Shown here: in pieces, positions 221 to 13,793 of the stretch | Numbering within the stretch: position 1 is the stretch's first letter | How the letters are laid out: every line of letters begins with the position of its first letter | Position numbers and translations under genes: made by a program | From: DATKZS01 sp035527835 [NCBI: bacterium] | GTDB taxonomy: Bacteria; RBG-13-61-14 | Assembly: GCA_035527835.1 (NCBI GenBank) | Contig: DATKZS010000051.1 | Coordinates: forward strand, 1 to 14,545 | Direction of reading: 5' to 3' | DNA length: 14,545 nucleotides | The notes under the pieces: model-generated | What the model was told of the DNA's origin: nothing | Databases searched by the model: none | Seen by the model: the letters and a program-made list of their open reading frames with translations, nothing else

Positions 221-1411
221 ATGAGCAAAGGCGAGTTCGCGGTCATCGGCACGGGCGAGGTCCCGTGCGGGAATTTTCCGGAGCGGACCGAGTTCGAGAC
301 CGCCTACCGGGTTTGCAAGCTGGCGATCGAGGACGCGGGGATCAATAAGAACGAGATCGGGGCGGTGCTGTGCGCGCAGCACATCATGGGGAACGAGTAC
401 AACACGGAGGCGGTGTTCGGCCGCCTCCCGGAGGCCATCGGGGCGCGGGGATGCAAGATCACGTGCATGACCAGCTCGGGCGGGGCCTCGAGCTTCTCCA
501 TCCGCAAGACCGCCGAGGGCATCCTTCACTCCGGGGAGACAGACACGGTGCTGGTGGTCCATGCCCAGCGCTTCTCGCAGTTCACCATGAACGAGATGGC
601 CCAGTACTTCGCCATCGCCGGCTCGGACGAGGAGTGGGACGTGCCCTACGGCATGACCTACAACTCGCTGGCGGCCATGGTCACTCAAGCATATATGAAC
701 GCCACCGGCTCCACCCGCGAACAGGTGGCGGCGGTGGCCGTGGCCTGCCGCAAGTGGGCCATGCTCCAGCCCAATGCCATGTTCAACAAGAAAGAGATCA
801 CCGTTGAAAAAGTTCTCTCCACCAAGATGGTGGCTTGGCCGCTCACCAGCCTCATGTGCAACGTGCTCGCCGACGGCGGGTCAGCCTACATCATGACCAC
901 GGCGGAGAAGGCCCGGAAGGTCTGCAAGAAACCGGTCTATTTCCTTTCCGACGCCTCCGACTATTCCCACCGCTCCATCACCAGCGCCAAGGTCAGCGGT
1001 TTCGAGTCCCTGGCCCAATACTTGAAGCCCCTCGCGGACAAGGCCTATGAGCGGGCGGGGCTCGGGCCGGACGACATGGATATCTTCGAGATCTACGGCT
1101 CCTACCCCGGCATCCACCTCATCATCATGGACGCGCTCGGGTTTGTTGAGCCGGGCAAGTCGGGCGCGCTGGTGGAGGCCGGAGAAACCGGCCCGGGCGG
1201 GAAGTATCCGTGCACGACCAACGGCGAAGCCCTGTCCTTTGGACACACTGGAACCGGGGTGGGCTTCGGGCTGTTTGTCGAGGCCTGCCGCCAGCTCATG
1301 GGCAAGGCCGGCAAGGCCCAGGTGCCGAACGCCCGCTTCATCATCGAGAACACCGGCGGCGGCGCGTTCATGGACTGCCATTTCACGGTCCTGGGGAATG
1401 AGGTCCCTTAA
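221..1411 (+). CDS. SCP2-type thiolase-like protein, possibly an acyl-CoA aldolase
   Basis: This 396-residue cytoplasmic protein has the thiolase fold of the lipid-transfer/SCP2 group. Recognisable parts are the active-site loop near residues 80-90, the CNVLADGGSA segment (213-222), EIYGSYPG (290-297), NGEALSFGHTGTG (334-346, His342) and a Gly-rich C-terminal ENTGGG strand. In family members the loop reads Cys-x-Ser-Gly-Gly. Here it reads T84-S-S-G-G, so the nucleophilic Cys appears replaced by Thr84, with C82 two residues out of place. A DUF35 protein follows directly, as in the BbsAB thiolase and the Ltp2-ChsH2 aldolase. Lack of the Cys is a known feature of Ltp2, which performs retro-aldol cleavage of a beta-hydroxyacyl-CoA. 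Thiolase superfamily membership is secure; aldolase activity is inference. The start is set by the Shine-Dalgarno at 208-216. Confidence 0.88.
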   Translation: MSKGEFAVIGTGEVPCGNFPERTEFETAYRVCKLAIEDAGINKNEIGAVLCAQHIMGNEYNTEAVFGRLPEAIGARGCKITCMTSSGGASSFSIRKTAEGILHSGETDTVLVVHAQRFSQFTMNEMAQYFAIAGSDEEWDVPYGMTYNSLAAMVTQAYMNATGSTREQVAAVAVACRKWAMLQPNAMFNKKEITVEKVLSTKMVAWPLTSLMCNVLADGGSAYIMTTAEKARKVCKKPVYFLSDASDYSHRSITSAKVSGFESLAQYLKPLADKAYERAGLGPDDMDIFEIYGSYPGIHLIIMDALGFVEPGKSGALVEAGETGPGGKYPCTTNGEALSFGHTGTGVGFGLFVEACRQLMGKAGKAQVPNARFIIENTGGGAFMDCHFTVLGNEVP

Positions 1412-1423
1412 GTATTTTTCTCG

Positions 1424-1447
1424 CACCGAGGCACAGAGATCACGGAG
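1424..1447. repeat. Degenerate CAC/GAG short repeat
   Basis: In the 56-base gap between the first two genes, GAG occurs at 1428, 1436 and 1445 (spacing 8 and 9), each preceded by an AC-rich triplet. It lies immediately upstream of the ribosome binding site GAGGAG (1455-1460) of the DUF35 gene. Confidence 0.5.
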
Positions 1448-1467
1448 CTAAGAAGAGGAGAGATCAA

Positions 1468-1914
1468 ATGGGAATTAAAGAATTATTAAATCTGTCGGAC
1501 GAGGAAGTGAAAAAGCCCATGCCCAAGCCGTCGAAATGGTCAAAGCCTTTCTGGGACGCGGCCAAACAGCACCGGCTCGTGCTCAAGCGCTGCAAGGACT
1601 GCGGCCGTATTGACCATCCGCCTTACCTCTACTGCACCAACTGCCAGAGCGATAATAGCGAATGGGTGGCGGCTCAAGGAAAGGCCAAGCTTTACGCCTA
1701 TGCCATCAATGAGTACATGGTGCCCTTCCCGTTCTGGGACGACATGCCTTATGTAGTGGCGATGGTGGACCTGCCGGAAGGCGTACGCATGATCTCCAAC
1801 ATCATCGAGTGCGACAAGGACAAGCTTAAAAACGGCATGGAGCTGGAGGTGGTGTTTGACGACGTATCGCCGGAGTTCACGCTGCCCAAGTGGAGGCCGG
1901 CGGGAAGAAAGTAG
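1468..1914 (+). CDS. DUF35 Zn-ribbon/OB-fold protein, partner of the thiolase-like protein
   Basis: This small protein of 148 residues has the two-part DUF35 layout. After an N-terminal helix (about 20-38) comes a rubredoxin-like zinc ribbon with ligands C42, C45, C56 and C59. An OB-fold follows from about residue 68 to the end, ending in a FTLPKWRP-type strand. In known systems such proteins bind thiolase-fold enzymes: BbsA with BbsB in toluene degradation, the DUF35 domain of ChsH2 with Ltp2 in steroid degradation, and the archaeal acetoacetyl-CoA thiolase/HMG-CoA synthase complex. There it shapes the CoA tunnel or is needed for activity. Adjacency to the thiolase-like gene strongly suggests a heteromeric complex here. 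The ATG at 1468 has GAGGAG seven bases upstream. Its stop codon lies inside a heptad repeat. Confidence 0.9.
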   Translation: MGIKELLNLSDEEVKKPMPKPSKWSKPFWDAAKQHRLVLKRCKDCGRIDHPPYLYCTNCQSDNSEWVAAQGKAKLYAYAINEYMVPFPFWDDMPYVVAMVDLPEGVRMISNIIECDKDKLKNGMELEVVFDDVSPEFTLPKWRPAGRK

Positions 1915-1937
1915 CCAGTAGCAAGCAGCCAGTAGCC
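1910..1937. repeat. Four-unit heptad repeat AGYAGCM across a stop codon
   Basis: The units AGTAGCC, AGTAGCA, AGCAGCC and AGTAGCC follow each other with no gaps (1910, 1917, 1924, 1931). The TAG at 1912-1914 that ends the DUF35 gene is part of the first unit, so the repeat begins inside the coding sequence and fills the gap to the next gene. Confidence 0.75.
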
Positions 1938-1946
1938 AGGGGAAGA

Positions 1947-3035
1947 ATGGAGAAGGGAGACAGACTGCGGCGGGCCGATCCGTGGAGACAGACTTTCGAG
2001 CTTCGGCGAGAGAACCCGGGCCGGGAAATAACCGACCACTTGCCCGCGCTGGAGATTGATCCGGCGGCGCTCGACGCCTATTCCGAGGCGGATCCGCTGC
2101 CGGAGCTGCCGGGCGCGATGAAGAACAAGCTCATGCTGATCGCCAGGCTGGAGGCGCCGAAGTGGGCGAAGCGCGGCAAGCTCGGCGATTATGGATGGGG
2201 CGCGGGCCGGAGCATTTTGCGCATGGACCTGGGGCAGACGTTATTCGAGAGAAAGGTCGCCCCTCAAAAGGCCCCGGACCTGAACCAGCTCAAGCGGGAG
2301 ATCAGGGAATTCGCGAAAAGCGTGGGCTACGGCCTTTGCGGATTCACCCGCATTGATCGGCGGTTTATCGCCGAGGGGCGGGACGACAAGTTTCCCTACG
2401 ACGCGGCCGTGGTCCTGGGCATGGAGATGGACCGGGGCCTGCTGGAGGAGGTCCCCTTTCCCGGACGCCGGCTCTTTGACTTCGAGGTCTACGTGGAGAG
2501 CGGACGGCGGGTGTTCGAGGTGGCCAGGTTCATAAGGTCGCGCGGATACCGCTGTCACGCGCGCGTGCCCTTTGACGGCTGGGTCAAGTACCCGCCGCAC
2601 GCCATCATGGCCGGGCTGGGCGAGCTGGGAGCGCAGGGCGTGGTCATCACCAAAGAGTACGGGCCGCGGCAGCGCTGGACCATGATCAGCGTGGACGCGG
2701 ACCTGGACCCGGACGAGCCGGTGGACCTCGGGATGGCCGAATATTGCGACCAATGCATGATCTGCGTCAACGCCTGTCCGGGCCGGGCCATCACCCGCGA
2801 GCGCATCTGGTGGAGAGGGGTGTTGAAGCGGAAAAACAACGACGCGCGCTGCTTCCCGATCTTCAGGAAGTACGAGGGTTGCGGCATTTGTTTAAAGGTC
2901 TGCCCCATCAACCGCCACGGCTACGAGGCGTGCATGGAGGCGTATCAAAAGGACGGGACGGTGCTGGGCAAGCAAGGTCCGGGCGCGGCCGAATTCGGCG
3001 GCCCGGAGGGAGCGGGAGAAAGGAGAACGGAATGA
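1947..3035 (+). CDS. QueG/reductive-dehalogenase-like protein with two [4Fe-4S] clusters
   Basis: The product is 362 residues from the ATG at 1947. The central region (about 115-260, with GYGLCGFTRID at 127-137) resembles the cobalamin-binding core of epoxyqueuosine reductase and RdhA-type proteins. A bacterial ferredoxin-like segment follows, with C267, C270, C273, C277 and C302, C312, C315, C319 positioned for two [4Fe-4S] clusters. There is no Tat or Sec signal, so it should be cytoplasmic, unlike respiratory RdhA. The first ~105 residues are an Arg/Pro-rich extension I do not recognise. An in-frame ATG at 1890 would add 19 residues, but these overlap the DUF35 gene and encode the heptad repeat, so 1947 is preferred. 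The stop overlaps the next start (ATGA). Reductase or electron-transfer role is likely; substrate and corrinoid content are unknown. Confidence 0.72.
   Translation: MEKGDRLRRADPWRQTFELRRENPGREITDHLPALEIDPAALDAYSEADPLPELPGAMKNKLMLIARLEAPKWAKRGKLGDYGWGAGRSILRMDLGQTLFERKVAPQKAPDLNQLKREIREFAKSVGYGLCGFTRIDRRFIAEGRDDKFPYDAAVVLGMEMDRGLLEEVPFPGRRLFDFEVYVESGRRVFEVARFIRSRGYRCHARVPFDGWVKYPPHAIMAGLGELGAQGVVITKEYGPRQRWTMISVDADLDPDEPVDLGMAEYCDQCMICVNACPGRAITRERIWWRGVLKRKNNDARCFPIFRKYEGCGICLKVCPINRHGYEACMEAYQKDGTVLGKQGPGAAEFGGPEGAGERRTE
3019..3025 (+). promoter_or_regulatory. Shine-Dalgarno deciding the enoyl-CoA hydratase start
   Basis: AAAGGAG lies six bases before the ATG at 3032. It supports this start over upstream in-frame codons that reach back to 2744 and would code an Arg/His-rich stretch out of frame with the ferredoxin gene. 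Confidence 0.75.
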
Positions 3036-3832
3036 GCGGCGAATACCAAACCCTGCTTTATGAGGTCTCGGGTCCGGAAAACAGCGTCTGCACCATCACC
3101 CTGAACCGGCCGGAACAACGGAACGCCATCAACCGGGAGATGGCCGCGGAGATGCTGGACGCCTTCCGGCGGGTGCGCGACGAGCCGGGCGTCAAGGTGG
3201 TGGTGTTCACGGGCGCGGGCAAGTCCTTCTGCTCGGGCGGAGACCTCTCGGTCCTGCCCACGTTCAACCACCAGACCGTCATGGACTGGCTCGCCCGCAC
3301 CGGCTACGACATCATCCACAACATCACCGAGAGCGAGAAGATCGTGGTGGCCAAGGTCAAGGGCCACTGCCTGGCCGGCGGGCTCGAGCTGGCCCTGGCC
3401 TGCGACCTGATCTACGCCAGCGAGAAGACCAAATTCGGCGTCACCGAGATCACCATGGGCATCCTGCCCGGCTGGGGCGGCACCGCGCGCCTGGCCCGGA
3501 CCATGCCCATCTTCCGCGCCCGCGAGATCCTGCTCACCGGACGCAAGGACTACACGGCCCGCGACGTCTACGACATGGGACTGCTGACCCGGGTCTTTAC
3601 CGAGGACGAGTTCGACCGAAAGGTGGATGAAGTGGTGAAGGACCTGGCCCTGAAGTCCGCGGACGCGCTGCGCATGGGCAAGAGCGTGATCAACCGGTCG
3701 TTCGAGGGGATCAACTGGGACGCGGCCATGACCCTGGAACGCAACGCCATCATGTGGCTCTTCTACTCGGACTATGCCACCAACCTGCGCAAATTCGCGC
3801 TGGCCGCCCTGGAGCAAAAGAAAAAAACGTGA
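3032..3832 (+). CDS. Enoyl-CoA hydratase/isomerase (crotonase family)
   Basis: This 266-residue protein has the usual crotonase length. The NRPEQRNAIN segment (25-34) and the oxyanion-hole loops FCSGGD (66-71) and GHCLAGG (111-117) are present. Both catalytic glutamates of true hydratases are found at the expected 20-residue spacing: E119 in GGLELALACD and E139 in FGVTEI, followed by LPGWGGT. It should therefore add water to a 2-enoyl-CoA, giving a 3-hydroxyacyl-CoA in the cytoplasm. It starts within the stop of the preceding gene (ATGA, 3032-3035), so translation is probably coupled. No 3-hydroxyacyl-CoA dehydrogenase gene accompanies it. Substrate specificity cannot be read from the sequence. 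Confidence 0.92.
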   Translation: MSGEYQTLLYEVSGPENSVCTITLNRPEQRNAINREMAAEMLDAFRRVRDEPGVKVVVFTGAGKSFCSGGDLSVLPTFNHQTVMDWLARTGYDIIHNITESEKIVVAKVKGHCLAGGLELALACDLIYASEKTKFGVTEITMGILPGWGGTARLARTMPIFRAREILLTGRKDYTARDVYDMGLLTRVFTEDEFDRKVDEVVKDLALKSADALRMGKSVINRSFEGINWDAAMTLERNAIMWLFYSDYATNLRKFALAALEQKKKT

Positions 3833-3869
3833 CCGCGACCCAAGGCGTCCGCGCTAAGAGGAGGGACCC

Positions 3870-5033
3870 ATGGATTTTTCATTGACCGAGACCCAGTTGC
3901 TGCTCAAGGACCAGATGGAGAGGTTCTGCAAGAAGGAGCTGAATTACGAGTACGTCAAGTGGATGGATGAGAACGTGGACTTTCCGCCCGACGAGCTGTG
4001 GAAAAAATTCATCGCCCTCGGGATCTTCAGCGGGCCGGTGGCCGAGGAGTACGGCGGCCAGGGGCTCGGACAGGTGGACGCCATGGTGGGTTTCGAGCAG
4101 ATCTGCAAATGCTCTTTGTCCGTGGCCAACGCCATCGGCGCCACCATCGGCTTCGGGGTCCGCTTCATTTCCGAGCTGGGGACCAAGGAACAGAAGGAAT
4201 TTTTTCTTCCCCGGCTGGGCGAGGGCAAGCTGAAATTCTGCATGGCGCTGACCGAGCCCGCGGGCGGCACGGACATCCTGGGCGCCATTTCCTCGTTTGC
4301 CGAGGACAAGGGAGACCGCTGGGTCTTGAACGGCCAGAAGATGTTCATCACCGGCGCGCACGTGGCCGACTACATGGTGGTGATCGCCAAGACCGAGAGA
4401 GACGCGAAGCCTTCCAAGTCGCTGAGCATTTTTCTGGTGGACGCCAAGAGCGCGGGGATCAAGACCACCAAGGTCCCCAAAATCAGCTTTCATCATTGCG
4501 ATTCGGTCGGGATTTTTTTCGAGGACGTCGAAATTCCTCAGGAAAACATCCTGGGCCGGCGCGGCGCGGGGTGGTATGACATGCTGACCGTGCTCAACCC
4601 GGAGCGCATCGGAGTGGCCATGATGGGGGTCGGGATCATCGCCGCGATCTATGAATATGTTTTCAAGTACGTCCAGGAGCGGCAGGCGTTCGGCGGACCC
4701 ATCAGCCGCTTCCAGATCCTGCAGCATTACCTGGCCGACATGTACTGCAACCTGGAGAACTCCAGGAACCTGACCTACAAGACCGCCTGGCTTTGCGATC
4801 ACGGCAAGCCGTATCACCTGGAAGCCACCATGGCCAAGCTGGTGGCGGCGCAGGGCGCCATGCACGCGGCGGTGCACGGCGCGGAGATCATGGGCGGCTA
4901 CGGCATCTGCAAGGAATACCCGATCCAGATGTACGCCCGCGACGCCTTCCAGATCCAGTTTTCGCCGATCTCGAACGAGATGAGCAAGAACATGCTCATG
5001 CAGTTCCAGGGCCTGCCCAAGTCCTGGGCCTAG
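3870..5033 (+). CDS. Acyl-CoA dehydrogenase with IVD/LCAD-type catalytic Glu
   Basis: A 387-residue FAD enzyme with N-terminal helical, middle beta and C-terminal helical domains. Signatures are CMALTEPAGGTD (124-135), WVLNGQKMFITG (151-162), RQAFGGPISRFQ (271-282) and MGGYGICKEYPIQMYARDA (341-359). In most acyl-CoA dehydrogenases the base is the Glu of an IYEGT motif after the RDA segment. Here that place reads FSPIS, with no Glu. Instead Glu245 in LNPERIGVA matches the alternative position used by isovaleryl-CoA and long-chain acyl-CoA dehydrogenases. It should form an alpha,beta-double bond in an acyl-CoA, perhaps a branched or bulky one, and pass electrons to ETF encoded elsewhere. AAGAGGAGGG (3856-3865) precedes the ATG by four bases. 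Confidence 0.92.
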   Translation: MDFSLTETQLLLKDQMERFCKKELNYEYVKWMDENVDFPPDELWKKFIALGIFSGPVAEEYGGQGLGQVDAMVGFEQICKCSLSVANAIGATIGFGVRFISELGTKEQKEFFLPRLGEGKLKFCMALTEPAGGTDILGAISSFAEDKGDRWVLNGQKMFITGAHVADYMVVIAKTERDAKPSKSLSIFLVDAKSAGIKTTKVPKISFHHCDSVGIFFEDVEIPQENILGRRGAGWYDMLTVLNPERIGVAMMGVGIIAAIYEYVFKYVQERQAFGGPISRFQILQHYLADMYCNLENSRNLTYKTAWLCDHGKPYHLEATMAKLVAAQGAMHAAVHGAEIMGGYGICKEYPIQMYARDAFQIQFSPISNEMSKNMLMQFQGLPKSWA

Positions 5034-5065: not shown

Positions 5066-6448
5066 ATGAGCTATGATAAACTCTTCGAGCCGATTCAAAT
5101 CGGCGACTGCGAGCTCAAGAACCGCGTCGCCATGTCGCCCATGAACATGACCTATTCCGCGCCCTTCGGGTACATGAGCCTGCAAAGCCTGGCCTGGTAC
5201 GCCACCCGGGCCAAGGGCGGCTTCGGCCTCATCATCACCGAGTGCGTGGTGGTCAACCCCCACCGCTGGCGCGGATGCGACGCCCTTAACCCCGCCCTCT
5301 TCACCGACGTGCGCCAGGCCCGGCATTTGAGCGAGCTCGTGAACCTGATCCACACTTATGACCGCACCCGGATTTTCATCCAGTTGAGTCCCGGGTGGGG
5401 GCGGCAGGGACACCCCAACCTCGACCAGCCCGACGTGCCCAGCGCCGCGCCCTCGCCCGTGCCCATGCGCACCGACGTCAGGAACCTCAACAAGGGCTGG
5501 GAGCGGCAGGTGAAGAGAGTGGCGCCCGAGATCGTGGCCCTGGTCGGCGGCGACTTCGACAAAATCAGGGCGATGAGCGACGACCAGTACGCGCTCCTGG
5601 AAAAGGTCATCATCGAGGCGCTCGCGAAAAAGGCGCCGGAGCTTTTGCACGTGGTGGTGGGGGAGACCCCGCGCGAGCTCCGCCGGGACGAGATCGTGGA
5701 CCTGGAGGACCGCATGGCCGCGCAGGCCGAGGCGTCCTTCAAGCTCGGGTTCGACGGCGTCGAAATCCACAGCCCCCACGGGTACCTCATCCACCAGTTC
5801 CTGTCGCCCCGCATGAACCTCCGCCATGACGAGTACGGCGGGTCCCTGGAAAACCGCGGCCGGTTCCTCGTCAACATCATCAAGAAAATCCGGGCCCGGG
5901 TCGGGCCGGACAAGCCGGTGGGGGCCCGCTTCTCCGGCGACGAGAAGGTTCCCGGCGGCCTCTCCCGCGACGAGGCCAGGCAGTTCGTCGCGATGGCGGC
6001 GGCGGCCGGGATGAACTACGTCAACATCTCCCAGGGATGCTACGAGAACCCGGGCGCCTTCGCGCCCGACGGGGAGGACGAGTTCACCCAGTACGGGCCC
6101 GGGTTCAAGCAAGCGGGCGGGGTGCCCGTGGTCACGCCCGGCTTTATCCATCCCGAGACCGCCAACGAGGCCGTGCAGGCGGGCTCTACCGATGTCATCT
6201 CGCTCGGCCGGCAGGCCATCGCCGATCCTTACTGGCCGGCCAAGACCCAGGCCGGGCGCGAGAAGGACATCGTGAAATGCACAAGATGCAACCAGTGTTA
6301 CATGAACCTCTTCGAGCCAAGATGGATCACCTGCAAGGCCAACCCCACCGCCGGGTTCGAGAAGTTCTATCCCGAACTGTGGATCAGGAACTCGCCCCAT
6401 GAAAAGAAAGCCCAGAAGTTCATGGCCAAGGCCAAGGGCCTGATCTGA
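5066..6448 (+). CDS. OYE/2,4-dienoyl-CoA reductase-like Fe-S flavoprotein, single-domain
   Basis: This 460-residue protein begins as an FMN-binding TIM barrel of the old yellow enzyme family: LFEPIQIGDCELKNR (6-20), VEIHSPHGYLIHQFLSP (232-248), YGGSLENRGRF (257-267). A [4Fe-4S] site follows, C405-x2-C408-x2-C411-x11-C423, the spacing seen in FadH and trimethylamine dehydrogenase. Those relatives continue with FAD and NAD(P) domains to about 670-730 residues. This one ends about 37 residues after the last Cys, so it needs another protein to deliver electrons. A segment of about 60 extra residues (about 134-200) sits before the usual TPREL helix. Reduction of a C=C bond conjugated to a carbonyl, or its reversal, is the likely chemistry. 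The neighbouring ferredoxin-like protein is one possible electron partner. Confidence 0.88.
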   Translation: MSYDKLFEPIQIGDCELKNRVAMSPMNMTYSAPFGYMSLQSLAWYATRAKGGFGLIITECVVVNPHRWRGCDALNPALFTDVRQARHLSELVNLIHTYDRTRIFIQLSPGWGRQGHPNLDQPDVPSAAPSPVPMRTDVRNLNKGWERQVKRVAPEIVALVGGDFDKIRAMSDDQYALLEKVIIEALAKKAPELLHVVVGETPRELRRDEIVDLEDRMAAQAEASFKLGFDGVEIHSPHGYLIHQFLSPRMNLRHDEYGGSLENRGRFLVNIIKKIRARVGPDKPVGARFSGDEKVPGGLSRDEARQFVAMAAAAGMNYVNISQGCYENPGAFAPDGEDEFTQYGPGFKQAGGVPVVTPGFIHPETANEAVQAGSTDVISLGRQAIADPYWPAKTQAGREKDIVKCTRCNQCYMNLFEPRWITCKANPTAGFEKFYPELWIRNSPHEKKAQKFMAKAKGLI

Positions 6449-6473: not shown

Positions 6474-8030
6474 ATGATAATGCTCGACGACATCCCGAGA
6501 AAGCACGCCAAGCTCGACCCGGAGTTCGAGTGCCTGGTGTTCGAGGAGCACCGCCTCACCTGGCGCCGGCTCGATGAGCGGGTGGACCGCCTGGCCAACG
6601 GCCTCATCGCCCTGGGGATCAAGCCCGGCGAGCACCTGGCCATCCTGGCCCAGAACAGCCACCGCTTCATGGAGTATTATTACGCGTGCGCCCGGGCGGG
6701 GATCGTGGCGGTCCCTCTCAACTGGCGGCTTGCGCCTGACGAGCTGCATTACATTTTGGACCATTCCGAGGCCGTGGCTCTGCTCACGGGCGCGGAGTAT
6801 ATCGAAACGGCCAAGACGCTTCGGCCGAAGCTCCCGCGCCTCCGGCATTACCTCTCCCTGGACGGTCCGGTTGAGGGCATGCGGGATTACGAGGCGCTCC
6901 TGGCCTCTGCTTCGCCCTCGCCCCATTACGGTCCGCGCGACGAGAACGCCATGTTCATCCTGATGTACACCGGCGGCACCACCGGCCTGCCCAAGGGCGT
7001 GATGCTGTCGAACCGCAACGTGCTGACCGCGGCGCTGGGCTGCCTTTTCACCATGCGGATTACCAAGGACGACAGCACCATCGCCATCCTGCCGCTGTTC
7101 CACATCGCCTTCTGGCCCGTTACCGTGGTGCACTTCATGGGCTCGAAGGCGGTGATCAGCAAGAAATTCGACCTGGCCTACGTGCTCGAAACCATCCAGA
7201 ATGAACGCTGCACCCACGTCAACATGGTCCCCACCATCGCCGGCTTCCTGCTCATGTTCCCGGACCTCGACCAGTACGACCTCACCAGCCTGCGCGCCAT
7301 CACCTATGCCGGCTCGCCCATGCCCTTCGAGCTCCTGATGAAGCTCAAGGAGAAATTCCCCGACCTCGACCTCGGCCAGGGCTACGGGCTTACCGAGGCC
7401 GCGCCCACCGTGGCCATCCTCGACCAGTTCGACCACCGGCGCATCGAGACCGAGCTCGGCCGGCGGCGGCTGGCCAGCGCCGGCCGCGAGTGCCTGGTCA
7501 CCGAGGTCCGGGTGATGAACGAGGAAGGCGGCCAGGTGAAGCCGGGAGCGATCGGAGAAATCTGCGCCCGGGGCGCCAACGTCATGCTGGGCTACTGGAA
7601 GAACCCGGAGCTTACCGCCGAGACCTTAAAAGACGGCTGGCTGCACACCGGCGACATGGCCACGATTGACGAGGACGGCTATATCTACATTGTGGACCGC
7701 AAGAACGACATGATTATTTCCGGGGGCGAGAACGTGTATCCGCGCGAGGTGGAGGACGTGATCTACAAGCATCCGGCCGTGATGGAGGCCGCGGTGGTGG
7801 GAGTGCCCGATCCCACCTGGGGCGAGGCGGTGAAGGCCGTGGTCGTGCTCAAGCCCGGACAGAGCGCCACCGAGGAAGAGATCATCGCGCTGTGCAAGCA
7901 GCACCTGGCCGGCTATAAAAAACCCAAGAGCGTCGAGTTCGCGTCGAGCCTGCCCAAGACGGCCATCGGCAAGATCCTGCGCCGCGAGGTCAAGGCGCCG
8001 TATTGGATCGGCAAAAGCAAGAGAGTATGA
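6474..8030 (+). CDS. Acyl-CoA synthetase (AMP-forming)
   Basis: A 518-residue class I adenylate-forming enzyme of typical length. The phosphate-binding loop MYTGGTTGLPKG (164-175), the A5 motif GYGLTEA (303-309), the hinge and A8 region GWLHTGD and DRKNDMIISGGENVYPREVE (388-427) and the C-terminal catalytic Lys500 in LPKTAIGK are all intact. It should convert a carboxylic acid, ATP and CoA into acyl-CoA, AMP and pyrophosphate, which would be the entry step for the dehydrogenase and hydratase encoded upstream. The acid cannot be predicted. AGAGGA (6461-6466) precedes the ATG at 6474; a second ATG two codons later is a possible alternative. Its stop overlaps the start of the next gene. Confidence 0.93.
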   Translation: MIMLDDIPRKHAKLDPEFECLVFEEHRLTWRRLDERVDRLANGLIALGIKPGEHLAILAQNSHRFMEYYYACARAGIVAVPLNWRLAPDELHYILDHSEAVALLTGAEYIETAKTLRPKLPRLRHYLSLDGPVEGMRDYEALLASASPSPHYGPRDENAMFILMYTGGTTGLPKGVMLSNRNVLTAALGCLFTMRITKDDSTIAILPLFHIAFWPVTVVHFMGSKAVISKKFDLAYVLETIQNERCTHVNMVPTIAGFLLMFPDLDQYDLTSLRAITYAGSPMPFELLMKLKEKFPDLDLGQGYGLTEAAPTVAILDQFDHRRIETELGRRRLASAGRECLVTEVRVMNEEGGQVKPGAIGEICARGANVMLGYWKNPELTAETLKDGWLHTGDMATIDEDGYIYIVDRKNDMIISGGENVYPREVEDVIYKHPAVMEAAVVGVPDPTWGEAVKAVVVLKPGQSATEEEIIALCKQHLAGYKKPKSVEFASSLPKTAIGKILRREVKAPYWIGKSKRV

Positions 8031-9151
8031 GCATGAAATCGGCCGAGCGCATACAGGCTGTCGTGGACTTGGAACGGCCCGACCGGGTCGCGCTGGCCCC
8101 GCTTATTGACCACTTCGCGGCCACTTATGCGGGCTGTACCAATGCCGATCTCATGACCGACGGTGAAACGCGCATCCAGGCCGTGCTCAAGACCATGCGC
8201 GAGCTGGGGCCCTGGGACATGACCTTTATCGCGGACACCGCCAACGCCTTCCTTTTGAAGATCGGGGTCCTGGCCCGGCTCCGCCTTCCCGGCCGCGAGC
8301 TGCCGGCGAACGAGGTCCACCAGTTCGTGGAAAGCGAGTTCCTGAAACCCGAGGATTACGACCGCCTCATCAAGCACGGCTTCTTCCGGTTCATGATGGC
8401 GGCGGCGGGCAGGAACCATCCGGAGCTGGCATTCGGCAAGGGCATTCCCCGCACCATCTACTCCCTGTTCGAGATGCGCCGGCACCGCAAAATGGTGGAG
8501 CGGGCGGGCGCGGTCATGGCCGCGGGCTTCATTCATCCGGGTCCGCTGTTCGAGGCGTTTTCCTTCGGACGCGGCCTGGGACCGATCAGCCTGGACCTCT
8601 ATGACCGGCCCGACAAGCTCAAGGCCGCGAGCAAGGCCTGGGCCAAGGCCTCCACCCGCATGGCCATCGCCTGCGCCCGGTTCATCGGCGCGCCGCGCAT
8701 CTTCATCGGCCTCTCCCGCTCGTCTCCGGCCACCATCTCGCCCCGCCACTTCGAGGAGTTCGTCATGCCCGAGCTCGAGTACATGGTGAACACCATTATT
8801 GACGAGGGCATGACCCCGCTGTTGCACTGCGACACCGATTGGAGCAAAGGCTATAATCTGTTCCGGAGACTCCCGGCCAAGAAGTGCATCCTCGAGCTCG
8901 ACGGCTTCTCCGACATCTTCAAGGCCAAGGAGGCGCTGGGCGATCATATGTGTATCATGGGCGACGTGCCGGCGTACCTGCTGGCCTTCGGGAAAAGGGA
9001 CGAGGTGCTGGCCTACTGCAAGCGCTTGATTGAAGAGGTCGGCAAGGGAGGCGGCTTTATTTTGTCGTCGGGCTGTTCCATCCCGGCCAACGCCCGGCCG
9101 GAGAACGTCAAGGCCATGGCCTATGCGGTGGAGGAGTGGGGATGGTATTAA
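8027..9151 (+). CDS. Uroporphyrinogen decarboxylase/MtaA-CmuA superfamily protein
   Basis: The product is 374 residues, a TIM-barrel protein of the UroD superfamily. The C-terminal signature GGGFILSSGCSIPANARPENVKAM (341-364) is that of MtaA-type proteins, with C350 at the place of their third zinc ligand. The first two ligands are normally His-x-Cys; here the strand reads H267-C268-D269. MtaA and CmuA move methyl groups between corrinoid proteins and coenzyme M or related acceptors, but no corrinoid protein is encoded beside it. It is unlikely to be the haem enzyme HemE, given the catabolic operon and the MtaA-like tail. ATG 8027 overlaps the preceding stop (ATGA) and implies coupling; ATG 8033 is an alternative. 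The reaction is unknown. Confidence 0.78.
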   Translation: MSMKSAERIQAVVDLERPDRVALAPLIDHFAATYAGCTNADLMTDGETRIQAVLKTMRELGPWDMTFIADTANAFLLKIGVLARLRLPGRELPANEVHQFVESEFLKPEDYDRLIKHGFFRFMMAAAGRNHPELAFGKGIPRTIYSLFEMRRHRKMVERAGAVMAAGFIHPGPLFEAFSFGRGLGPISLDLYDRPDKLKAASKAWAKASTRMAIACARFIGAPRIFIGLSRSSPATISPRHFEEFVMPELEYMVNTIIDEGMTPLLHCDTDWSKGYNLFRRLPAKKCILELDGFSDIFKAKEALGDHMCIMGDVPAYLLAFGKRDEVLAYCKRLIEEVGKGGGFILSSGCSIPANARPENVKAMAYAVEEWGWY

Positions 9152-11289
9152 GGGACAAGTCCGTGGCTGACCGCCGCGTCGTCCGCTCCGCGTGCCGCAT
9201 GTGTCACGGCGTGTGCCAGGTGCTGGTGCACCTGGAAGGGGACCGGGTGGTCAAGGTGGCCGGCGATCCGGCGAGCCCCACCAGCAAGGGTTACATCTGC
9301 CCCAAGGGCGCGGCCTCGGTCGAGCTGCTTTACCACCCGGACCGGCTCCGCTATCCGCTTCAGCGCGCGGGCGAGCGCGGCCAGAACAAGTGGAAGCGCA
9401 TTTCCTGGGACCAGGCGCTCTCTGAAATGGCGGAGAGGTTGGGCCGGATCAAGGACGAGAGCGGGGCCGAATACGTCGGGATGATGCAGGGCACCGGCCG
9501 GCCCTATACCGGGTTCACCACCCGCTTTGCCAACGCCTTCGGCACTCCCAATTTCACGGGCGTGGCCCACGTCTGCTATTTCCCGAGATGGATCGCCAGC
9601 CTGGGCACGGTGGGCCAACTGCCTATCGCCGACGTTTACGGCTTCGGCGGCCGGATGCCGGAATGCGTCGTGCTCTGGGGCTGCAACGTCACCCAGACGG
9701 GCGCTTCCGACGGCATGTGCGGAGGCATGGTCCAGCGCGCCCTCGACCAGGCCAGGAAAGTGATCGTGATAGACCCGCGCCGGACCGGGCCGGCCAAGCG
9801 CGCCGACCACTGGCTCCGGCTCCGGCCCGGCACCGACGGCGCGCTCGCCATCGCCATGCTTCACGTGATCGTCGGCGAGAATCTTTACGACCGCGAGTTC
9901 GTGGAGAAATACACCAGCGGCTTTGACAAGCTCGCCGAGCACGTAAAGCCGTTCACGCCGGAGTGGGCCGCGGCCATCACGCGGCTTACGGCCGATGAGA
10001 TCCGGGCCGCGGCCCGCACTTACGCCGCGGCGCGGCCGGCCTGCATCCAGTGGGGCAACGCCCTGGACATGAGCGCGTCCAATTACCAGACCGCGCGCGC
10101 CATCCTCATTATGAGCGGCATCTGCGGCAACATTGACGCGCCCGGCGGCGACGCGCTGTGGGTGGGGCCGGCGGGCGTCAAGCAGCGCTCCATCTTCCGC
10201 AACCTGGAGGTGGCCGGTCTGCAATTCCTTCCGCCCGAGAAGGCGGCGAAGAGACTCGACGGCGGCAAGTACCCGCTGTGCCCGGCCGTGCATCCGCCCG
10301 CGTTCTGGCGCTCGATCGTGACCGGCGACCCCTACCGCCTCCGGGCCTTCTGGGTGGTGGGATCGAATCCGCTCACCACCATGACCAACACCGCCGACGT
10401 GGAGGCCGGGCTCAAGCTCCTCGAATACACCGTGGTTACGGACCTGTTCCTGACCCCGACCGCGCAGCTCGCCGACCTGGTCCTGCCCGCGGCCTCATGG
10501 CTGGAGCAGGACGAGATAGTCAACATCCATAAAATCTGGTGCGTGCTGGCCCGAAAAAAAGTCGCCCAAATCGGCGAGACCAGGGACGACCGCGAGATCA
10601 TCATCGAGCTCGCGCGAAGGCTGGGACTCACCGCGGCCTTTCCCTGGAAGGACTACCGCGAGTACCTGGAGTGGGTATTGGAGGATTCGGGCCTCGCCTT
10701 CGAGGAATTCTGCGAGCGCGGCATCCTGGCCGGTGAGCAGCGTTATTACAAATACAAGAATTCCGGCTTCGAGACGCCTTCCGGCAAGCTCGAGATTTAC
10801 AACGGCCTGCTCAGCATGCTCGGCCGCGAGCCGCTGCCGGTTTACCGCGAGCCGCCGCTGACGCCGGTGTCCGCGCCCGAGCTGGCAAAAGAGTATCCGT
10901 TGATCCTCACCACCGGCGCGAAGGTCCGGGCGTTCTTTCACTCGGAGGGCCGCCAGCTCGAGTCATTGCGCAAGACCAATCCCGATCCGCTGGTCGAGAT
11001 CCATCCCGACACCGCGCAGCCGCTCAATATTTCCGACGGCGACTGGGTCTGCATCGAGACGCCGCACGGCAAGATCAAGATGCGCGCCCGCCTCACCGAC
11101 ATCGTGGCGCCGGACGTGGTCTCGGCCCAGCACGCCTGGTGGTTCCCGGAGCAGGACCCCCCCGAGTACGGCTACAAGCAATCCACGGTGAACCTGCTCT
11201 TCGGACCCATGGCCTACGACCCCGACACCGGCTCCGAGTCGCTGCGCAGCGCCTTGTGCAAGGTGTACCCGGCAAAGGGAGGCCGCTGA
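9142..11289 (+). CDS. Molybdopterin (Mo/W-bis-MGD) enzyme, stand-alone catalytic subunit
   Basis: A 715-residue member of the complex iron-sulfur molybdoenzyme (DMSO reductase/formate dehydrogenase) family. The N-terminus carries the [4Fe-4S] motif C18-x2-C21-x3-C25-x27-C53-PKG. The metal-ligand position reads HVC145YFPRW, so Mo or W is probably bound by Cys145; the His that follows it in formate dehydrogenases is Tyr here. The C-terminal molydopterin-dinucleotide domain (about 580-700) is present. There is no Tat signal, and no Fe-S or membrane subunit is encoded nearby, so it is cytoplasmic and may act alone, as acetylene hydratase does. The Asp after the second cluster Cys of acetylene hydratase is His22 here, so the same reaction is not expected. 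ATG 9142 is preferred over GTG 9136; it overlaps the preceding gene by ten bases with GAGGAG at 9131-9136. Confidence 0.88.
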   Translation: MVLRDKSVADRRVVRSACRMCHGVCQVLVHLEGDRVVKVAGDPASPTSKGYICPKGAASVELLYHPDRLRYPLQRAGERGQNKWKRISWDQALSEMAERLGRIKDESGAEYVGMMQGTGRPYTGFTTRFANAFGTPNFTGVAHVCYFPRWIASLGTVGQLPIADVYGFGGRMPECVVLWGCNVTQTGASDGMCGGMVQRALDQARKVIVIDPRRTGPAKRADHWLRLRPGTDGALAIAMLHVIVGENLYDREFVEKYTSGFDKLAEHVKPFTPEWAAAITRLTADEIRAAARTYAAARPACIQWGNALDMSASNYQTARAILIMSGICGNIDAPGGDALWVGPAGVKQRSIFRNLEVAGLQFLPPEKAAKRLDGGKYPLCPAVHPPAFWRSIVTGDPYRLRAFWVVGSNPLTTMTNTADVEAGLKLLEYTVVTDLFLTPTAQLADLVLPAASWLEQDEIVNIHKIWCVLARKKVAQIGETRDDREIIIELARRLGLTAAFPWKDYREYLEWVLEDSGLAFEEFCERGILAGEQRYYKYKNSGFETPSGKLEIYNGLLSMLGREPLPVYREPPLTPVSAPELAKEYPLILTTGAKVRAFFHSEGRQLESLRKTNPDPLVEIHPDTAQPLNISDGDWVCIETPHGKIKMRARLTDIVAPDVVSAQHAWWFPEQDPPEYGYKQSTVNLLFGPMAYDPDTGSESLRSALCKVYPAKGGR

Positions 11290-12788: not shown

Positions 12789-13793
12789 ATGGCGATGGAA
12801 TTTGAAAAGGACGACTATTTCAAGATTGACCCCGAGGCCCATCTCATCGGCGACATGGGACCCATCAACCATTTTCCCGGCGTCCAGATGTGGTGGCGCG
12901 CCATCGCCAGCATCACCCGGCCGCTGATCATGGGATCGCCGCCGGAAAGTCTGGCCATGCTGGAGCCGCGCGAGATGGTCAAGAACCACGATCCCGCAAA
13001 CCTCCTCTGGTCCATGGACCGGTACGGCGTGGACGTGGCCTGCCTTTTGCCCGAGTCCATGATGGACACCACCGGCTACACCTCCCGCTGGGTCAGCAAC
13101 GGCGAGATGGCCAAGGTGGTCGAGTCCAATCCCTCGCGCTTCATGTATCAGCCCAACGTCTCGCCCATCAAGCACAAGGGCCTGGACAACACCATCTGGG
13201 AGCTCGAGTACTGGGTCAAGGAAAAGGGCGCCAGGATTTTCAAGTTCTACCCGCCGGAGGACACTTTCATCAACGATCCCGACCTCTGGCCCTTTTATAA
13301 AAAGGCCGAGGAGCTGGGCATCGTGCTCGACATCCACACCGGCTTCTGCTGGGTCCCGCCCGGAAAGTCAAAGCACGCGCTGCCCATCCTGCTCGACGAC
13401 GTGGCCCGCGATTTCCCCGATCTCAAAATCGTCGCCTTCCACATGGGCTACCCTTATTGCGACGACCTCAACATGGTCGCCATGGGTCATCCCAACGTCC
13501 ACGTCTGCCTCTCGCTCCTCTGCCCCTGGGCCGTCTCCGCGCCCCGCAAGTTCGCCAAGATCATCGGCGAGGCCCTGCGCTGGGTCGGACCCGACAAGAT
13601 CATCTGGGGCACGGATTACGCCGGCTTCTCCGCCCAGATCGGCGCCGCGGTCAAGGGCCTCCGCGATTTCCAGATCCCCGAGGACATGCGCTCGGGCTAC
13701 GGCTTCCCCCTCATCACCGGCGAGGACCGCCGCAAAATCTTCGGCCAAAACCTGGCCCGCCTCATGGGCATCGAGACCAAACGAAGGGTCTGA
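12789..13793 (+). CDS. Amidohydrolase-2 (ACMSD-like) family metal-dependent hydrolase or decarboxylase
   Basis: A 334-residue TIM-barrel protein of the amidohydrolase-2 family. The metal ligands are visible: IDPEAHL with Glu16 and His18 (the ExH form of the N-terminal motif), His183 in LDIHTG, His218 in VAFHMG and Asp276 in WGTDYAG. No signal peptide is seen, so it is cytoplasmic. The family includes ACMSD, gamma-resorcylate decarboxylase and other C-C or C-N bond cleaving enzymes with one divalent metal ion. Here it could decarboxylate or hydrolyse a product of the operon. It is separated from the ten-gene block by a 183-base spacer holding a long inverted repeat, so co-transcription is uncertain. 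Product specificity cannot be read. Confidence 0.88.
   Translation: MAMEFEKDDYFKIDPEAHLIGDMGPINHFPGVQMWWRAIASITRPLIMGSPPESLAMLEPREMVKNHDPANLLWSMDRYGVDVACLLPESMMDTTGYTSRWVSNGEMAKVVESNPSRFMYQPNVSPIKHKGLDNTIWELEYWVKEKGARIFKFYPPEDTFINDPDLWPFYKKAEELGIVLDIHTGFCWVPPGKSKHALPILLDDVARDFPDLKIVAFHMGYPYCDDLNMVAMGHPNVHVCLSLLCPWAVSAPRKFAKIIGEALRWVGPDKIIWGTDYAGFSAQIGAAVKGLRDFQIPEDMRSGYGFPLITGEDRRKIFGQNLARLMGIETKRRV

Follow-up and report, generated by a model that had tools for sequence, protein, structure and literature searches.

For bile acids and cholesterol, aldolytic cleavage by thiolase-fold enzymes that lack the nucleophilic cysteine is an established reaction (PMC12329534, PMC8399759, PMC6208644). 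It has also been described or proposed for denitrifying degraders of both (PMC8399759, PMC6208644), so the idea that bacteria use it while growing anaerobically has precedent. Such retro-aldol chemistry has so far been proved mainly in steroid-degrading bacteria. Here we analyse a stretch of 14,545 nucleotides, the window, which is positions 1 to 14,545 of contig DATKZS010000051.1 of DATKZS01 sp035527835 (assembly GCA_035527835.1). It is occupied by a single long gene run on the + strand (g1 to g11) that extends to about 13.8 kb. Judged by sequence comparison, the window probably encodes an aldolytic beta-oxidation module in which g1, a thiolase-fold protein without the cysteine, acts as retro-aldolase; we give this reading a probability of roughly 70%.

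Three solved complexes and one solved thiolase-fold protein are the nearest points of reference. CtSal-CtShy(DUF35), the bile acid side-chain aldolase of Comamonas testosteroni (PDB 9myr; PMC12329534), resembles g1 in its fold, in a glycine in place of the cysteine, in its catalytic tyrosine and in having a DUF35 partner. CtSal differs in its acid, Cys304, and in Gln352, where g1 has Ser294 and His342. Besides, the DUF35 domain of CtShy forms one protein with a MaoC hydratase (PMC11321319), whereas the window encodes a free DUF35 protein and a crotonase-type hydratase, and CtSal handles a steroid in an aerobic model host, unlike the setting proposed here. TcLtp2-ChsH2(DUF35), the steroid C3 side-chain aldolase of Thermomonospora curvata (6ok1), has the same Cys-less fold, with Tyr294 at the place of Tyr292 in g1, and its ChsH2 subunit is the best match of g2; however, it carries YDHF and the acid Tyr344 against YGSY and His342 in g1, and it matches g1 more weakly than 4u4e and CtSal do. 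The closest solved sequence, 4u4e, bears the molecule name 'Thiolase' in the PDB and has the same Gly, Tyr, Ser and His at positions 88, 292, 294 and 342, its motif being YDSF instead of YGSY. BbsAB, the benzoylsuccinyl-CoA thiolase of anaerobic toluene degradation (7pxp), works in an anaerobic beta-oxidation setting and combines DUF35-type and thiolase-fold subunits, as g1 and g2 would, but BbsB keeps both the cysteine and the HDAF motif that g1 lacks.

Two further systems are compared by their published descriptions. IpfDE of ibuprofen degradation is annotated as a thiolase and belongs to a CoA-ligase-initiated route whose retro-aldolase step frees propionyl-CoA from a non-steroid, but it acts after a dioxygenase and so needs oxygen (PMC9195938). 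The anaerobic cholesterol side-chain route of Sterolibacterium denitrificans runs through the same order of activities without oxygen (acyl-CoA synthetase, acyl-CoA dehydrogenase, enoyl-CoA hydratase, aldolase, aldehyde dehydrogenase), while adding that last enzyme and, among other steroid enzymes, C25 dehydrogenase (PMC6208644). In the open literature, no description of the present cluster was found in titles, beginnings of abstracts and opened passages, subscription journals lying mostly outside this scope, and passages of two papers on benzene (PMC13101534, PMC13416013) gave no sign of the gene set. What appears to be new in the window is a variant active site (Tyr292/His342) on a known aldolase theme, a reading well supported by comparison.

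A glycine at the place of the thiolase nucleophile

By E-value, the PDB relatives of g1 begin with 4u4e (E 1.7e-42), followed by 7yvy and CtSal, with the archaeal thiolase 6esq, BbsB and TcLtp2 further off. Which residue of g1 stands where thiolases have their nucleophile? The cysteine falls on Gly88 in the MAFFT alignment and on Gly87 both in an hhalign comparison of two profiles and in phmmer against 6esq; phmmer against 7yvy alone places it on Thr84, the site named in the original prediction. Thr84 was discarded as the nucleophile site in view of the MAFFT and hhalign placements and of its variability, since residue 84 is T, V, L, I, M or C among the Cys-less relatives and Gly88 is constant. 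The broader claim, a thiolase-fold protein without nucleophilic cysteine, stands, because no alignment puts a cysteine at that position. Cys82, which as nucleophile would by the prediction's own account have refuted it, aligns with the nucleophile in no alignment made and is replaced by other residues in several relatives. The GGASS stretches of g1 and CtSal match letter for letter, making Gly88 the equivalent of CtSal Gly89. CtSal has a glycine at the thiolase cysteine position, and the backbone of its Gly89 contacts the beta-hydroxyl (PMC12329534); the two descriptions presumably refer to one residue.

A cysteine at position 84 occurs in seven relatives (L020, L021, L024, L025, L058, L061 and L062; loci and genomes carry our working numbers, L and G), all of which keep Gly88 and Tyr292. 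A naive motif search would label them thiolases.

A coupled tyrosine and the descent of g1

The HDxF motif of thiolases reads YGSY in g1, its histidine being replaced by Tyr292, which aligns with CtSal Tyr302 and TcLtp2 Tyr294, the catalytic tyrosines of the known retro-aldolases. Exchange of CtSal Tyr302 for phenylalanine abolished activity, a result judged consistent with the role of the TcLtp2 tyrosine (PMC12329534). Among 66 aligned rows, Gly88 and Tyr292 occur together in 55 and Cys88 and His292 in nine, two are fragments with one site each, and none is mixed, so that Tyr292 is found in every Gly88 row having both sites (55/55). CtSal and TcLtp2 share the Gly/Tyr pair; BbsB, 6esq and 7yvy stand on the cysteine side. 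With the columns around the two sites removed and the fragments L016 and L037 omitted, a maximum-likelihood tree of 45 rows needs a single change between Cys/His and Gly/Tyr: all cysteine rows lie on one side of a branch with support 99/90 and the window on the opposite side, several long branches making deeper placements unsure. Clustering of g1 with the Cys-bearing BbsB, the outcome that the prediction had named as adverse to it, is ruled out by this tree, where BbsB sits among the cysteine rows.

The remaining active-site positions are more particular. CtSal Cys304 corresponds to Ser294 in g1 and to alanine in L012, L016 and many diverged copies, while TcLtp2 Tyr344 and CtSal Gln352 both align with His342, a histidine in all window-family rows with the site and in Cys-bearing thiolases as well. 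The g1 protein lacks the nucleophilic cysteine and HDxF of BbsB-type and SCP2-type thiolases, and it stands apart from a strict Sal clade defined by Cys304 and YDCY (Ser294 in g1, Ala in L012) and from a strict Ltp2 clade defined by YDHF and Tyr344. With the retro-aldolases of the Sal/Ltp2 kind it shares the absent cysteine, the tyrosine replacing the HDxF histidine and the adjoining DUF35 gene.

Over 15 sequences (the window and 14 of its 15 full-length relatives, L013, which contains an internal TGA, being omitted), mean column identity of g1 is 85%, and Tyr292 and His342 are invariant. This strong conservation makes it improbable that g1 is a non-catalytic scaffold or a protein with a slow side activity, even though thiolase-like proteins of unclear role exist, such as the SCP2-thiolase-like protein of Trypanosoma with its weak malonyl-CoA decarboxylation (PMC12329534).

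Partner and pathway genes of the run

The activities expected around such an aldolase are encoded in the same run (Table 1), and the DUF35 protein, hydratase, acyl-CoA dehydrogenase and acyl-CoA synthetase of the original prediction were all recovered. The four zinc-ribbon cysteines of g2 are present in 31 of 32 rows. Hydratase g4 has both glutamates that we take to be catalytic, E119 (conserved in 22 of 23 rows, L023 having Asp) and E139 (23/23), and g5 contains Glu349, presumably its catalytic residue, within GYGICKEYP. No 3-hydroxyacyl-CoA dehydrogenase was found, in agreement with the prediction: the window gave no tblastn match to one query of that enzyme (HAD) and one short-chain dehydrogenase/reductase (SDR) query, and no such family appeared in 10 proteins scanned with Pfam. 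The limits of 221-5033 first proposed for the module do enclose five of its genes, but the run is far longer and the ligase lies outside them; the RdhA-like gene within them had been overlooked, as had the genes for Old Yellow Enzyme (OYE)-like, UroD-like, acetylene-hydratase-like and amidohydrolase proteins further downstream.

Table 1. Genes of the run on the window
Gene	Product	Position	Strand	Basis
g1	Thiolase-fold protein without nucleophilic Cys, proposed retro-aldolase	221..1411	+	Pfam PF22691; PDB relatives 4u4e, 9myr (CtSal), 6ok1 (TcLtp2); alignment; tree
g2	DUF35 (zinc ribbon + OB fold) partner	1468..1914	+	Pfam zf-ChsH2 + OB_ChsH2_C; best PDB match ChsH2(DUF35) 6ok1_B, E 7e-25
g3	RdhA/QueG-like Fe-S protein	1947..3035	+	TIGR02486 100.7 bits, below cut-off 160.35; PceA among PDB relatives
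g4	Enoyl-CoA hydratase (crotonase), E119 + E139	3032..3832	+	Pfam ECH_1; conservation
g5	Acyl-CoA dehydrogenase	3870..5033	+	Pfam; Glu349 stretch
g6	Old-Yellow-Enzyme-like FMN protein	5066..6448	+	PF00724; NCBIfam
g7	Acyl-CoA ligase	6474..8030	+	PF00501; NF004837 above its cut-off
g8	UroD/corrinoid-methyltransferase-like protein	8027..9151	+	PF01208; best PDB match CdmB, E 3.9e-21
g9	Molybdopterin protein	9142..11289	+	Best PDB match acetylene hydratase, E 1.4e-110
g10	Protein, 438 amino acids	11289..12605	+	No Pfam match
g11	Amidohydrolase_2 family protein with ExH motif	12789..13793	+	PF04909; motif alignment

A recurring gene set around g1 copies

Neighbourhoods were compared for 40 copies of g1 with at least 33% identity, the window included, by single-query tblastn over the genes within 12 kb. 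These counts are lower bounds, as many loci end inside 12 kb, and a few matches are remote (<30% identity). Left out were L028, L029, L030, L036 and L074 (no copy at or above 33%), L017, L032 to L035, and the short loci L038 to L072, a mixture of duplicates and additional copies. Because L004 and L013 share part of a contig, module genes there can count twice (their molybdopterin and UroD-like genes are the same genes), and the window's own amidohydrolase, just beyond 12 kb, is uncounted. A DUF35 gene accompanies 39 of the 40 copies, the sole copy without one being L037, which ends inside g1. It is followed by acyl-CoA dehydrogenase (34), OYE (33), ligase (30), hydratase (28), a MerR-TetR regulator (27), amidohydrolase (24), UroD-like (11), SDR (9) and molybdopterin genes (8); RdhA-like genes (4), canonical thiolases (3) and HAD (1) are the rarest. 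The recurring set comprises seven genes (g1, g2, g4, g5, g6, g7 and g11) plus a regulator of its own, and because it recurs beside diverged g1 copies we consider it more than a product of chance.

HAD genes (PF02737) are present in 14/14 genomes and yet near only one of 16 full-length orthologues (L006), where the gene lies 5 kb upstream, separated from g1 by a regulator and a further open frame on the opposite strand, and apparently belongs to another operon. The three canonical thiolases are in L012 (a fragment), L016 and L076; their presence near some copies suggests that the Cys-less g1 is not simply filling the place of a thiolase.

Proposed mechanism and alternatives

Comparison gives us the missing cysteine, the tyrosine in a known catalytic position, the DUF35 neighbour and the gene set; from these we infer a complex of g1 with g2, its reaction, the direction of that reaction and the acid residue. 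An acid would be activated by ligase g7 and desaturated as acyl-CoA by g5, and hydratase g4 would add water to yield a beta-hydroxyacyl-CoA. Bound to g2, g1 would then cleave the C-alpha/C-beta bond by a retro-aldol reaction, releasing a ketone or aldehyde together with acetyl-CoA (or propionyl-CoA); neither a 3-hydroxyacyl-CoA dehydrogenase step nor thiolysis would take part. In this scheme Tyr292 would act as base and deprotonate the beta-hydroxyl, Gly88 would provide space at the site of the thiolase cysteine, and His342, which does not vary in the window's family, would be the most likely acid. The original idea of an aldolase has come through the Cys82 and BbsB comparisons, and the Gly/Tyr pair, a stronger signature that the prediction had not pointed out, agrees with CtSal and TcLtp2.

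Several points weigh against this proposal. We know of no activity for any member of the g1 subfamily, and the changes from Cys304 to Ser294 or Ala and from Tyr344 to His342 mean that its active site matches neither proven aldolase. Since His342 is kept in Cys-bearing thiolases too, its conservation is by itself no proof of an acid role, and since the Gly/Tyr coupling reflects one evolutionary change, its many rows are not independent evidence. The AlphaFold2 model of g1, made from 15 close sequences, reached a mean pLDDT of 47.6 and was not used. Many contigs are short, which limits the weight of absences near g1, and the SDRs near nine copies (counted with one query; in L005 the gene lies between the ligase and the UroD-like gene) could oxidise the hydroxyacyl-CoA, which is the main loophole. 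Lastly, aldehyde dehydrogenase genes (PF00171) were found in 23/23 genomes but never less than 5 kb from g1, and in one genome such a gene is about 9 kb away. Bile-acid clusters, by contrast, carry the aldehyde dehydrogenase Sad (PMC8399759), so a ketone product fits better than an aldehyde, unless the enzyme is encoded elsewhere. Among the matches listed for aldehyde-ferredoxin oxidoreductase, none lay near g1.

Could g1 and g2 instead serve a biosynthetic or substrate-activating route, joining an acyl-CoA to a ketone or aldehyde by an aldol or Claisen-type condensation? Aldol reactions are reversible, and DUF35/thiolase-fold complexes include synthetic systems such as the archaeal thiolase/HMG-CoA synthase and the acylase PhlABC (PMC12329534). 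Nevertheless, the ligase, acyl-CoA dehydrogenase and hydratase of the same run look catabolic, and the canonical thiolases near three copies, together with MFS transporter genes in L016, L076 and L077, suggest uptake and breakdown, making condensation unlikely. We lend little credence, too, to the idea that g1 is still a thiolase or acyltransferase working through another residue, with SDRs supplying the dehydrogenase step: the nearby SDRs, the cysteines at position 84 and the phmmer pairing of Thr84 with the 7yvy cysteine would suit it, but residue 84 is unconserved, the other alignments point to Gly88 or Gly87, and the HDxF histidine is replaced by tyrosine throughout the Gly88 rows.

If the retro-aldol reading is right, several bacterial groups would have an oxygen-free means of shortening acids in which the beta carbon cannot be oxidised to a ketone. 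Genes of the g1 type fall close to thiolase names (the nearest NCBIfam models, 'acetyl-CoA acetyltransferase' and 'thiolase domain-containing protein', all score below their cut-offs for g1), although thiolysis is probably beyond them, and the Gly88/Tyr292 pair would be a simple test for telling likely aldolases from thiolases. The recurring seven-gene set and its regulator offer a handle for finding the substrate.

Distribution and paired modules

A contig scan with g1 gave 27 pattern matches, which reduced to 17 loci, of which 15 hold full-length copies (72-83% identity), one a fragment (69%) and one a remote relative (24%). Across all scans, orthologues are 67-83% identical and come from metagenome-assembled genomes of several bacterial groups, the record titles naming Deltaproteobacteria, Syntrophobacteria, Syntrophobacteraceae, Actinomycetota (Geothermincola, Solincola and others), Syntrophomonadaceae and Acidimicrobium, with Chloroflexi for the remote one, and pointing to groundwater, fen, marine and anoxic samples. 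In samples drawn from two phyla, with at most four candidates scored per genome, 9 of 396 genomes from the phylum of G002 matched at E 1e-60 (eight with at least 72% identity, all eight already in the contig scan) and 19 of 395 from that of G009 (five with at least 67%, three of them new), so the g1 gene is rare in these samples.

Two full-length orthologues each are found in G004, G005 and G013, and G007 has a further end fragment. The two modules of G004 and of G005 differ in their hydratase (69-71% versus 40% identity to g4), while in G013 one contig ends too early for this comparison. Bile-acid degradation offers a parallel in Sal1 and Sal2, two aldolases that act in succession (PMC8399759). 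An anaerobic setting is suggested by the record titles, with the organisms and samples that they name, and by the RdhA-like and acetylene-hydratase-like proteins. A wider proposal, which we hold tentatively and at clearly less than even odds, is a cross-phylum, strictly anaerobic system that performs repeated aldolytic cycles on non-steroid compounds by a third kind of thiolase-fold aldolase, with tyrosine as base and histidine as acid. The two modules with distinct hydratases in two genomes would then look like two successive cycles, and the OYE relative, the amidohydrolase and, in some copies, the acetylene-hydratase-like enzyme would finish the leftover ring or ketone. Their target might be a branched or polycyclic compound that is abundant in nature.

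Steroid side chains were considered as substrate; DUF1302 and FAD_binding_2 proteins were met in L012, no systematic search for them having been made.

Accessory genes and other loci

Molybdopterin protein g9 has a histidine at the site aligned with acetylene hydratase Asp13, after the second cluster cysteine (CRMCHGVC in g9 versus CQSCDINC); we take Asp13 to be the residue beside the Fe-S cluster of that enzyme. Six distinct copies of g9 with 64-84% identity are present in L001, L003, L004 (the same gene in L013), L008, L009 and L074. The UroD/CdmB-like and RdhA-like families are often corrinoid users, and g8 and g3 share one gene run; no corrinoid carrier protein was found among the window proteins scanned with Pfam. 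The g6 protein is shorter than the BaiCD profile, its best stretch stopping at profile position 371 of 642. Membership of g10 in the module is uncertain: tblastn found a homologue in L001 only among the first 17 loci, and its N-terminus resembles, by eye, a signal peptide.

The regulator joins a MerR and a TetR domain in one protein (L001:5821-6762, L003:827-1672, L011:7212-8609, L012:3007-4317 and L073:12805-13728), both domains being present in all five proteins scanned. Amidohydrolase copies are 52-84% identical in related loci and remote (23-25%) near g1 in L024 to L026; in six runs (L073/L074, L075, L079, L080, L081 and L083) they are 70-81% identical where g1 is only 36-42%. On the single 4.54 Mb contig of G773, which may be a closed genome, L074:4470-6455 encodes an acetoacetate-CoA ligase (TIGR01217 far above cut-off) between OYE and acetylene-hydratase-like genes. 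This ligase may hint at acetoacetate as a product of the route. The HMG-CoA-like cleavage or release of acetone that it also suggested was set aside, tblastn having found no close copy of the ligase in the other loci searched. Directly after the amidohydrolase of L011, positions 13961-15349 encode a 2-hydroxyglutaryl-CoA dehydratase D-component-like protein.

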